Assembly (NCBI GenBank): GCA_021799575.1
Contig: JAJZAD010000003.1
Span: forward strand, 1-64,000
Reading direction: 5' to 3'
DNA from: a bacterium
GTDB taxonomy: Bacteria > Patescibacteriota > Saccharimonadia > Saccharimonadales > UBA4665
Length of the DNA stretch: 64,000 nucleotides
A model generated the notes under the pieces. The model ran no database searches, was not told where the DNA came from, and saw only the letters and a list, made by a program, of their open reading frames with translations. Positions 13,315 through 18,208 of the stretch are shown piece by piece. Both the position numbers and the translations under genes were made by a program. The number at the start of each line of letters is the position of its first letter. Within the stretch, counting starts at the first letter, position 1.

Positions 13315-15666
13315 TTAACTATCTGAGGCTTGTTTGGCTAGTTTTGCCATTTTAAATTGAGTGTATTTTTCGGCTGCTAATCTGTTTAATTCCGGATCTT
13401 CATCCTTGTTAATAAATATCATACCTGCCGCCAATAACGGATGTACCTCTGAAACTTTATCGTGCATTGCCTGAACCAGTTTCCTATAACCCGGATGTCC
13501 TTGCGGGCTGGTTCTGAGCTCGTGAAGATGATAAGCCTCTCTGGCGTTATAGGTTACTTTCCAGCGTAAACGATGACCTAGCAAGGTAGCATACTGGGCT
13601 TCGTTTTCGTATCCGGCTGCCTGTAATTCGCTATATAATTTAACGGATATATCAAAAGCCTGTTCAAATTGTTCGCTAAGGCCCGCTTCATCAACTAACT
13701 TAGGTATTTCGTATCCGTAGCGCGGGTTCAGTTTTTGCCAGACTAAATCGTCAACCATTCGGTGTCGTTGTAAATCTCTAAAAATACCGTAATCGCAAAT
13801 TAGATCCCAACTGTAATGAACTTTTTCCAAGGCTCTTCCCGGTCGATGCCGCCGATTCAGCCTTTCTCCCAAATAAGTCGTTACGACTTTAGTTTTCTGC
13901 TCGAAAGTCCATTTAGCCAGTATATCTCTGATTGATGCAAGCGGTAGATTGCTGTACTCATAAAGCATATCGGCGACAATATCCAGTTCGTTTCTAGGCC
14001 AAAAGTCTACAAGTGCTACGCTTTCGGTTTGGCTTGGAGCGATTGTTTTATTAATTGTCTTATCTGCGAGTAGCTGCATTGCTTTCTGGTTGTTGGCCTT
14101 GTAAGCCACAAATGCACCGCCACGCTCGGGTTTATCTGCCCGTTCTAGGAACATTGGCATTATTTTACGTGCCTCGTTGAGGAGTTTTTGTCCTGTTTCT
14201 CTGGCTTCGGACATCGGATCGGCTAATAAATGCATGATCATAGATTCTAGAGCCTGAGCCGAGGCGAAAATACCGACAGTTGAAGTGGTACAGACAGGTA
14301 AAATCGAACGGGCTGCATCACAGGCCTGAGCCTTGACTGCCGATCGAAAAGCGGCGTCACGTTCGTTTTTATTCACTTTGCTGGTAGCTTCAATGTAACT
14401 TGTTAATTTGTGCACCATGTCAGAGTAAATATCGAATATTTTATCCATAGACCTTACATACTTACGTTTGAGGGTTGATTCTAAATCCCGAGGTGTAAAA
14501 TACCGATAATGATTATGTTCATCTTTCTTATCGAAATAAATGTAGCGAGTTGATTGTTCCAGATATGCTGCGAGCCTTCCCCACTCTAACTTTTTAGTTA
14601 GTAAGTTCGAAGCATCTTCTACTACCATATGTATGCCTGTTAGTTGTTGCACCGAATCATCTCCATAAGCAGTAATAACCCGTTTCAACAAGTCTGCATC
14701 CCGTCCCGCTTGGGTGACATTGGCAAATTCATCAAGCAGAGTAACGCGCATGTCGTCACCGCGTCTAGAAAGCCTAGCCATGGCTGCTGCTACCGTTACC
14801 GGGGACAGATTATTATAAAAAGCATAAACGTTTGAATCCAGACTTGTAACATAGGACTTGAGTAACAACTTACCCCGTTCGGTAATTGCATAGCCTTTAT
14901 CTTGCTTGACGACCAGTAGCTCGGGATCGATGTACTGTTGTGGCGAGGCTTTGGTTGTTAAAGGCGGCTCAATACTTGTACTCGTGTCCGGGATAGAGCT
15001 TCTCCTTATCTCGGTTTTGGTGCTGTCCTGTAGCGAAGTCCTCTCAGCCATTGTTTTAACTACGATCGGCCAAATTCTCTGGGTTACTTCTTCCTTTGAA
15101 CCGTTCGCAACAACAACAGGGAAACCGCGTTGGTTGGCCTCCCAGAGATAACCGGCTCTTACTCTTTCTAAAAATTCGGCATCTAAATTATCGAATCGCT
15201 CACCTTGATTAATTTTTTGCTTGCGCTCCAATAGGGTCTGGACCGGCGCGTCCAATACTATCGTGAGATCCGGTTCGATACCGTTAACCGCAAAGTTGAT
15301 AATCCGGTTAATGGTTTCATAGTCAGGTACATCTCCCCTGCCATAATACTGGACCGCCAAGGTTGTTAAATAGCTACGGTCGACTATACAATAAATGCCT
15401 TTTTCCGTGCTGTTTTTTATCACCTGTAGTGACTGAGCACGCGCTGCGTTGTACAGTAACACTTCAGTGATGGTGTTAATCGGATAGTTCGGGTCCTGTG
15501 TCAGATGACGAATAGCTCTAGCCGTAAGGTCACTTTGCGAATCTGGTTCACGAAGTGTTTTGACGGCCAAACCGGCAGACTGTAACCGTTTAGCCAATTC
15601 CGAAACTTGAGTCGTCTTACCGACGCCTTCCGGGCCTTCGATTACAATATATTTGCCCTTAATCAT
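13315..15666 (-). CDS. thymidylate kinase fused to tandem ThyX-like (FAD-dependent thymidylate synthase) domains
   Basis: N-term IEGPEGVGKTTQ and DRSYLTTLAVQYYG (Tmk); ThyX-like segment 1 with EWGRLAAYLEQSTRY and segment 2 with LQRHRMVDDLVWQKLNPRY. Confidence 0.85.
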   Translation of the reverse strand: MIKGKYIVIEGPEGVGKTTQVSELAKRLQSAGLAVKTLREPDSQSDLTARAIRHLTQDPNYPINTITEVLLYNAARAQSLQVIKNSTEKGIYCIVDRSYLTTLAVQYYGRGDVPDYETINRIINFAVNGIEPDLTIVLDAPVQTLLERKQKINQGERFDNLDAEFLERVRAGYLWEANQRGFPVVVANGSKEEVTQRIWPIVVKTMAERTSLQDSTKTEIRRSSIPDTSTSIEPPLTTKASPQQYIDPELLVVKQDKGYAITERGKLLLKSYVTSLDSNVYAFYNNLSPVTVAAAMARLSRRGDDMRVTLLDEFANVTQAGRDADLLKRVITAYGDDSVQQLTGIHMVVEDASNLLTKKLEWGRLAAYLEQSTRYIYFDKKDEHNHYRYFTPRDLESTLKRKYVRSMDKIFDIYSDMVHKLTSYIEATSKVNKNERDAAFRSAVKAQACDAARSILPVCTTSTVGIFASAQALESMIMHLLADPMSEARETGQKLLNEARKIMPMFLERADKPERGGAFVAYKANNQKAMQLLADKTINKTIAPSQTESVALVDFWPRNELDIVADMLYEYSNLPLASIRDILAKWTFEQKTKVVTTYLGERLNRRHRPGRALEKVHYSWDLICDYGIFRDLQRHRMVDDLVWQKLNPRYGYEIPKLVDEAGLSEQFEQAFDISVKLYSELQAAGYENEAQYATLLGHRLRWKVTYNAREAYHLHELRTSPQGHPGYRKLVQAMHDKVSEVHPLLAAGMIFINKDEDPELNRLAAEKYTQFKMAKLAKQASDS

Positions 15667-16372
15667 ACGGCATACCTTCTATTGGTGTAGGCATAGATCT
15701 TTCGTCTTTGTAGGCTTTAGGTAGCAGCATGTCCGGTGACCAGGTTCTAACAATCGTTTCCAGGTCAGAACCCTGCTGGTATTTACCGCTAAAACCGTTA
15801 TTTCTACCTTCCCCGTAACTGCCTTCTACTGGGCCTGTTTCCAAGAATACAGCCTGGGCTATTCTTTCCCCGACCGGTAATAGTATTGTTTCGCGTTGAT
15901 TCAAGTTGTAGATCTCTAAAGTTAGCCGGTTAATGTATCCCGGATCTACCCAACCGGCATCAAAACATACCGCTACACCGTTGCGTCCCCAACTAGACCG
16001 GGATTTTAGTTCGTAGGCACCAGGAGGCAAAATACCGAAAAATTCGTGTGTGTGAGCTAAAATGCGTTCGCCGGGTTTTAAAGCGATTACAGGGTGTTCC
16101 AACGGAATATTATTCAGGGGCTGGAAACCGTTTTGCTTGATCCATTGGGACTGGCTGCTGGCTTTATATGGTCCGTCAAAATAACGCTCCACGTCTTCCT
16201 TGTCAAAGGGGTTGTATATTGTGCGCTCATTCATACGCTCAATGCGATAATAATAATAACCTAGAGTTACGTCTAAACTGGCGTGGGCAATGTGTTTCGG
16301 GTTAAACGGCACACAAATAATATGCCCGTTCGTAATCGCATCTCGTATTTGGGTGTTACTGTAGACTCCCAA
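15659..16372 (-). CDS. dcd: dCTP deaminase / dUTPase-family protein
   Basis: ELKSRSSWGRNGVAV, DPGYINRLTLEIYNLN, GERIAQAVF. Confidence 0.9.
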   Translation of the reverse strand: MGVYSNTQIRDAITNGHIICVPFNPKHIAHASLDVTLGYYYYRIERMNERTIYNPFDKEDVERYFDGPYKASSQSQWIKQNGFQPLNNIPLEHPVIALKPGERILAHTHEFFGILPPGAYELKSRSSWGRNGVAVCFDAGWVDPGYINRLTLEIYNLNQRETILLPVGERIAQAVFLETGPVEGSYGEGRNNGFSGKYQQGSDLETIVRTWSPDMLLPKAYKDERSMPTPIEGMPYD

Positions 16373-16504: not shown

Positions 16505-18208
16505 ATGTTTAAACAATTACGGTTTCGACACAGTCACGTAGTAAGTCTCATCAGTCTTTTGGTTTTAGTGTACGGGCTGTTTATTATTGGCAGTACTTTA
16601 GTTGGACAGTTCAAAATTCATCGGCTACATTTGTTAAGTTATTTCTCCATTGACGTTCACATATTGTTTGGCTTGGGCTTTGTTTATCTGAGCCTATTGT
16701 TACTGAAACGTAAACGCAACGCATTATATCTGGCTACCGTTGCTTTTGCGGTTTTATTAGCAGATGGAATAGTGGAGATCGCATTACATCCGGCTAGCCA
16801 TAAATTAAATTTTGCCATAACTGTTAATTACATTATTTTACCGGTCATTATTACGGCTGCGTTAATTCTCTATCGCAATGAGTTTAAAGTTAAAAGCGAT
16901 TTTCAGACTTTCATGGGATCGATTAAACTAGCCGTGGTAGTAATAATTATCACACTTATGTATGGCGTTAGCGGCTTTTTATTGATGGATAAGTCTGACT
17001 TTCACCAAGAGATCGGTTTCACTAGTGCTCTACACCACACCGTCGACCAATTCGATTTAACAACTTCTCAGCCTTTGATAGCTTATACCAAGAGGGCTCA
17101 ACTGTTTTTACATTCCTTATCAATTATAAGTATCGGTTCGATTGTTTTTTTAATGATTTCTCTGGTGCAGCCGGTTAAATCCAGATTAGGTAATGATGAA
17201 GAATCACGTAAAAGGATTAATTCGCTTATGGAACGATTCGGTGCACCGAGCGAAGATTTTTTTAAACTATGGCCAAGGGATAAACATTATTTTTTTGATT
17301 CCAGTGGCAATGCCGCTCTTGCCTATAAAACCAAACGAGGCGTGGCTTTGATTCTTGCCGATCCGGTAGGTGATGAAAATTCGTTTAAGCAGTTATTGAG
17401 GGAGTTTCACGACATGTGTTGGTCCAATGACTGGCAGCCTGCCCTGATACATGTTGACGCGAAATATAAGTGGCTGTATAGAAAAAGCGGTTATCAGCTA
17501 CAGTTGATCGGTCAAGAAGCTTTTGTTAATGTAGAGCATTTTTGTAAGCAAACCCGGAATAATAAATATTTTAGAAACATCGTTAACCGCTTCGGTAAGG
17601 AAGGCTATACGTTTGAAATTCTAAATCCTCCGCATAATAAGGCCAAAGTTAATCGTTTACGCGTAATATCCGACGAATGGTTATCTAAGCCGGGCCGGAC
17701 GGAAAGAGGTTTTGTAATGGGGTATTTTAGTGAAGAGTACCTTCAAAAGTGTAGTTTGGCGGTTGTTAAAGATTCCGCCCGGAATATCCAAGCATTTTTG
17801 AATATTATCCCTTCTACTAGTTTTAATCGAAAAGAAGTGACATATGATATGCTGCGCGCTGCGAAGTCTGCTCCACCAAATGTTAACGACTTTTTGTTGC
17901 TAAGTCTCATCGATTGGACTGATGTTAAAGGTTATAAGACCCTAAATATGGGCTTATCACCGTTAATCGGTTTAGACGATTCGCAGGCGGACAACGGCCT
18001 TATCACTAGCGTGCTTAGGTTTGCCTATACGAATGGCGATAGGTTTTACTCGTTTAGTGGTCTTAAAAGGTTTAAAAGCAAATATGAACCCGAATGGGTT
18101 GATAAAATGATTGGCTTTAAGGGAGGGCTTAGAGGCTTCAGCAAAGCCATGAACGCATTACTGCCAGCCATGAGTGTCTCTTCCGGTCTAAAGCGCAAGT
18201 CGGATTGA
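16505..18208 (+). CDS. membrane protein with MprF-like C-terminal DUF2156 (aminoacyl-phosphatidylglycerol transferase-like) domain
   Basis: N-terminal TM helices then KLWPRDKHYFFDSSGNAALAYKTKRGVALILADPVGD ... GFVMGYF ... LNMGLSPLIGL. Confidence 0.8.
   Translation: MFKQLRFRHSHVVSLISLLVLVYGLFIIGSTLVGQFKIHRLHLLSYFSIDVHILFGLGFVYLSLLLLKRKRNALYLATVAFAVLLADGIVEIALHPASHKLNFAITVNYIILPVIITAALILYRNEFKVKSDFQTFMGSIKLAVVVIIITLMYGVSGFLLMDKSDFHQEIGFTSALHHTVDQFDLTTSQPLIAYTKRAQLFLHSLSIISIGSIVFLMISLVQPVKSRLGNDEESRKRINSLMERFGAPSEDFFKLWPRDKHYFFDSSGNAALAYKTKRGVALILADPVGDENSFKQLLREFHDMCWSNDWQPALIHVDAKYKWLYRKSGYQLQLIGQEAFVNVEHFCKQTRNNKYFRNIVNRFGKEGYTFEILNPPHNKAKVNRLRVISDEWLSKPGRTERGFVMGYFSEEYLQKCSLAVVKDSARNIQAFLNIIPSTSFNRKEVTYDMLRAAKSAPPNVNDFLLLSLIDWTDVKGYKTLNMGLSPLIGLDDSQADNGLITSVLRFAYTNGDRFYSFSGLKRFKSKYEPEWVDKMIGFKGGLRGFSKAMNALLPAMSVSSGLKRKSD

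Follow-up and report, generated by a model that had tools for sequence, protein, structure and literature searches.

The protein encoded at positions 13315–15666 (minus strand) of the 64,000-nucleotide stretch of contig JAJZAD010000003.1 that was analysed (the window) joins a thymidylate kinase (Tmk) and two tandem ThyX repeats in a single polypeptide of 783 amino acids, and probably both synthesises dTMP, at composite ThyX sites, and phosphorylates it, by means of a tethered kinase. The frame is open throughout, with no interruption, and Pfam assigns Thymidylate_kin to residues 9–198 (1.8e-29) and Thy1 to two stretches (3.6e-37). The three-part architecture had been proposed in a sequence-only reading of the same DNA; HMM searches, predicted structures and 62 distinct fused relatives all agree with it. 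The P-loop, DRS, EWGR, YLEQSTRY and QRHR motifs were likewise located where that reading had placed them.

The kinase domain (residues 1–207; 15046–15666, minus strand) passes the family cut-offs of both TIGR00041 (113.9 vs 83.25 bits) and Pfam (103.2 vs 27), and its predicted structure matches that of the Thermotoga maritima Tmk (PDB: 3hjn) with a Foldseek TMt of 0.91. It includes the P-loop EGPEGVGKTTQ (residues 10–20), AARAQ (residues 74–78), DRS (residues 96–98) and the lid motif ERKQKINQGERF (residues 147–158). The P-loop, DR motif and fold are shared with bacterial thymidylate kinases of the TIGR00041 type, from which the domain differs in being part of a larger polypeptide and in carrying AVQ in place of AYQ (DRSYLTTLAVQ vs DRxxxSxxAYQ), the tyrosine being replaced by V. 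One fused relative (L018:250-2586) has lost the kinase DR motif (ESSFIANIV), and its Tmk half may be inactive.

A flexible linker (residues 208–250; 14917–15045, minus strand), of which residues 211–242 are predicted by AlphaFold to be disordered (pLDDT under 50), leads into ThyX repeat 1 (residues 251–530; 14077–14916, minus strand; Thy1 match at residues 290–504), the putative dUMP and lid half, which contains EWGR (residues 361–364) and YLEQSTRY (residues 368–375). Repeat 2 (residues 545–765; 13372–14034, minus strand), the putative FAD half, has its PF02511 match at residues 552–743 (13438–14013) and contains QRHR (residues 633–636). In the profile search of the genome ThyX was thus recovered in both halves, at 65.8 and 64.8 bits against the Pfam Thy1 cut-off of 24.8. 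The AlphaFold model has a mean pLDDT of 87.4 over the whole chain; that of the tandem ThyX part (mean pLDDT 89.3, pTM 0.85) matches T. maritima ThyX (PDB: 3g4a) in Foldseek with a probability of 1.00 and a TMt of 0.70, which identifies the ThyX fold, although an rmsd of over 4 Å counts against the bifunctional synthase-kinase. The protein scored 58.9 bits with the thyX equivalog model TIGR02170, under the cut-off of 87.9, and its ThyX part is therefore classed as a variant of the ThyX superfamily and not as an equivalog.

To map the active-site residues, T. maritima ThyX was taken as the reference for an alignment of both repeats, anchored by ten tool-derived canonical ThyX sequences from Patescibacteria; the T. 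maritima numbering is consistent with the residue numbers in the papers cited below. In the window protein, repeat 1 has E370, S372, R374, Y375 and R453, with WGR in place of RHR, while repeat 2 has R634-H635-R636, N707, R709 and R718 and has lost SxRY. The RHR...SxRY motif is whole only when the repeats are combined, RHR coming from repeat 2 and ExSxRY from repeat 1. The sequence-only reading had found a divergent QKLNPRY in repeat 2; NPRY is indeed present, but it does not align with SxRY, where repeat 2 has a gap or other residues, and the lid tyrosine position is occupied by W.

The same division is found in a set of 111 tandem ThyX proteins. In T. maritima numbering, repeat 1 keeps E86, S88, R90, Y91 and R147 in all 111, R78 and H79 are changed to W and G in 104, and R165 is changed to Q in every sequence. 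Repeat 2 keeps R78 in 111, H79 in 109 and R80 in 110, as well as R165 and R174 in 109 (the two remaining rows have gaps there), Y91 is replaced by W throughout, and R147 by Q in 93. Because the same residues are retained in nearly all of these relatives, the pattern is more than chance. The partition was the same in all 29 stand-alone tandem ThyX relatives detected outside Saccharimonadia in the genome scan, and among 20 examples examined from other Patescibacteria classes, most confine SxRY to the first repeat and RHR to the second. The loci L143-L162 from these classes score weakly against the domain models and mostly combine ExSTRY in repeat 1 with RHR in repeat 2, which suggests an old, unnamed ThyX subfamily.

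In Mycobacterium tuberculosis ThyX, subunit A contributes RHR and Arg199, subunit B contributes Ser71 and Arg190, and subunit C contributes Ser105, Arg107 and Tyr108 (PMC6514825), while in PBCV-1 ThyX Arg182 comes from one monomer and Ser88/Gln89 from the other (PMC3498832). Taken together, these contacts and the residue map equate subunit A with repeat 2 and subunit C with repeat 1, in agreement with the earlier proposal that active-site residues are partitioned between the repeats. The residues of role B are divided: Arg165 survives in repeat 2 and Ser55 in repeat 1, position 55 of repeat 2 (the Ser/Thr55 of role B) being an almost invariant Arg. On this residue pattern, role B would be taken by repeat 2 of a second chain.

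Canonical ThyX (FDTS; T. maritima TM0449, M. tuberculosis ThyX; PF02511) and the fusion are alike in fold, in the FAD/dUMP residue set and in having sites shared between subunits. Whereas the canonical enzyme is a homotetramer with four identical sites built from one gene copy, the fusion has two specialised repeats. Two chains would pair and, with four ThyX repeats between them, re-create the ThyX tetramer; in both, repeat 2 would stand for the published subunits A and B and hold FAD through its RHR motif, its late Arg and a residue of the Arg165 type, and repeat 1 would stand for subunit C, its Glu, Ser, Arg and Tyr gripping dUMP and forming the lid. Read in this way, the partition implies one composite site per chain, and the two other sites of the dimer, lacking both halves, would be dead. 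At a competent site the carbon of CH2-folate would reach dUMP by way of FAD, and the dTMP so formed would be phosphorylated to dTDP by the tethered Tmk. The direct coupling of dUMP methylation to dTMP phosphorylation that had been suggested from the sequence would go a step beyond this reading, and the predicted disorder of the linker offers no grounds for assuming a fixed tunnel. A bolder version, i.e., a flavin enzyme hard-wired for half-of-sites activity, in which the two live sites would supply dTMP to the tethered kinases so that dUMP passes to dTDP with little dTMP released, and an arrangement attained with each of two separate lineages of kinase, appears to us rather unlikely.

The genomic context was also considered. 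The fusion is the sole Thymidylate_kin match in the window's genome, which is 92% complete and in which there was no match to a second Tmk, a second ThyX, any ThyA or any thymidine kinase; SHMT, as the carbon source, and DHFR are present. Each repeat alone is degenerate, and five related genomes (G125, G075, G071, G119 and G132) encode a Tmk whose fused ThyX part is clearly decayed, as would fit a pseudoenzyme that acts on the kinase as scaffold or regulator and has no thymidylate synthase activity. The decayed copies, which have lost RHR and other motifs (L038:2351-4642, L039:5164-7080, L044:2938-5004, L045:2800-4809 and L046:3100-4734), are, however, accompanied by a replacement synthase, namely ThyA in three of the five genomes and a separate intact tandem ThyX in the other two. 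Among 27 genomes with an intact fusion, full-length ThyA was found in one and short partial ThyA matches in two (Fisher p 3e-5, uncorrected for shared ancestry, with four of the five decayed copies in one family). This co-occurrence points to the ThyX part as a working synthase where it is intact. As the two halves also jointly retain nearly the full residue set, both in the window and in other tandem proteins, and the window's genome has no match to another thymidylate synthase, the pseudoenzyme is quite improbable.

Neither repeat of the window protein has the equivalent of T. maritima His53 (the residues are D and P) or of Gln75. These losses, the Arg at position 55 of repeat 2, the low TIGR02170 score, the altered kinase motif and the incompleteness of the genome also weigh against the bifunctional synthase-kinase. 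His53 has a role in folate/flavin stacking (PMC11940539), and its loss, like the TIGR02170 score below the cut-off, would be compatible with a ThyX part that yields another product, e.g., a differently modified pyrimidine nucleotide, for phosphorylation by the kinase. Set against this are T. maritima H53A and H53D structures with bound ligands, which exist according to their PDB titles, the retention of dUMP contacts equivalent to S88, R90 and R174, a fused kinase that is of the Tmk type and passes TIGR00041, and the position of the ThyX part as the only candidate for the essential supply of dTMP. We consider a different product very improbable.

The fusion architecture is real and widespread in its group. 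Classification of all loci with custom HMMs gave 62 distinct fused sequences in Saccharimonadia, of which 41 have a kinase of the window's type (TIGR00041) and 21 a second type that matches NF005923/PRK07933 (L019, L020, L021, L023, L025, L027, L030 and others). Full-length matches of approximately 760–800 amino acids occur in several families among 147 genomes of the class, and those in a scan of named genomes were Candidatus Saccharibacteria. Within the window's own family, Thymidylate_kin lies in a frame of 767–860 amino acids in 45 of 59 sampled genomes, one of which (G132) has the decayed copy. The possibility that neighbouring genes had been joined by assembly, which the sequence-only reading had itself raised, is ruled out by the occurrence of the same single frame in all 62 sequences from many independent assemblies. 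Cleavage or internal starts could still give separate enzymes, as the disordered linker would permit and as the unfused relatives in which tmk adjoins tandem thyX, overlapping it in some, might suggest; taken as a whole, the explanation that the parts are fused only by assembly or annotation, or act as separate enzymes, has very little likelihood.

No Tmk fusion was found outside Saccharimonadia among 380 sampled Patescibacteria genomes, where the listed Thy1 frames outside the class reach at most 619 amino acids, or among the phage, plasmid and viral contig matches. Nor was a report of a Tmk-ThyX-ThyX fusion found in the literature searched, most subscription journals being outside its reach. 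The pseudo-dimeric ThyX is far more widely distributed than the fusion and is not unique to it. Tandem ThyX without a kinase was found in the genome scan in Acidimicrobiia, Nitriliruptoria (including Euzebya) and Chloroflexota, as well as in other Patescibacteria classes; based on similarity spanning both repeats, it was also identified in plasmid records from Bacillus and Parabacteroides, annotated as ‘FAD-dependent thymidylate synthase’, and in phage Tunturi_5. These stand-alone proteins share the two-repeat architecture of the fusion, and the 29 from the genome scan its residue partition, but they lack the kinase domain.

A dCTP deaminase-like gene (dcd; 15659–16372, minus strand; TIGR02274 87.7 bits, below the cut-off of 92.8) overlaps the fusion gene by 8 bases. 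The two are likely to belong to the same operon, in which dcd would supply the route to dUMP; promoter and terminator scans gave no usable signal. Beyond dcd, and transcribed away from both genes, is a gene (16505–18208, plus strand) for a 567-residue protein matching positions 319–827 of the MprF (lysylphosphatidylglycerol synthase) model far under the equivalog cut-off (324.5 vs 600 bits). Directly upstream of the fusion, and often overlapping it, dcd is present at 67 of 75 fused loci, and in several unfused Saccharimonadia tandem thyX directly follows tmk, with dcd further upstream. This shared gene order suggests that dcd, tmk and thyX formed an operon, in that order, and that its last two genes were then fused. 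The presence of two kinase lineages requires either two or more fusions or a single exchange of kinase, between which the tree does not decide. The ThyX tree alone needs 8–11 label changes for kinase type and gives no support for the fused sequences as one clade. The AU test does not reject a tree in which the second kinase type forms a single clade (p 0.50), so several separate exchanges were set aside and the claim is limited to two kinase lineages. At five loci an extra stand-alone Tmk-like kinase gene, mostly of the DR(S/G)PLS/T type, precedes the fusion (L059:1779-2435, L069:3-629, L071:56-688, L077:1788-2429 and L103:13-651); none was found in the window's genome.

Other fusions in the dTMP pathway include the protozoan DHFR-TS and the TK-TMK chimera of a shrimp virus. 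They resemble the present protein in placing consecutive pathway steps on one chain, but they consist of different enzymes, with neither a flavin-dependent synthase nor a split active site. Because TIGR02170 misses the window protein, tandem ThyX, whether stand-alone or fused, needs an annotation model of its own. The partition in 111 proteins constitutes a natural test of site sharing in ThyX, i.e., of which subunit gives which residue, and it predicts one FAD per chain. In these streamlined bacteria two consecutive steps of the route to dTTP are joined in one polypeptide, and any benefit of this proximity, such as channelling between synthase and kinase, may be asked of the fusion as a tractable system.
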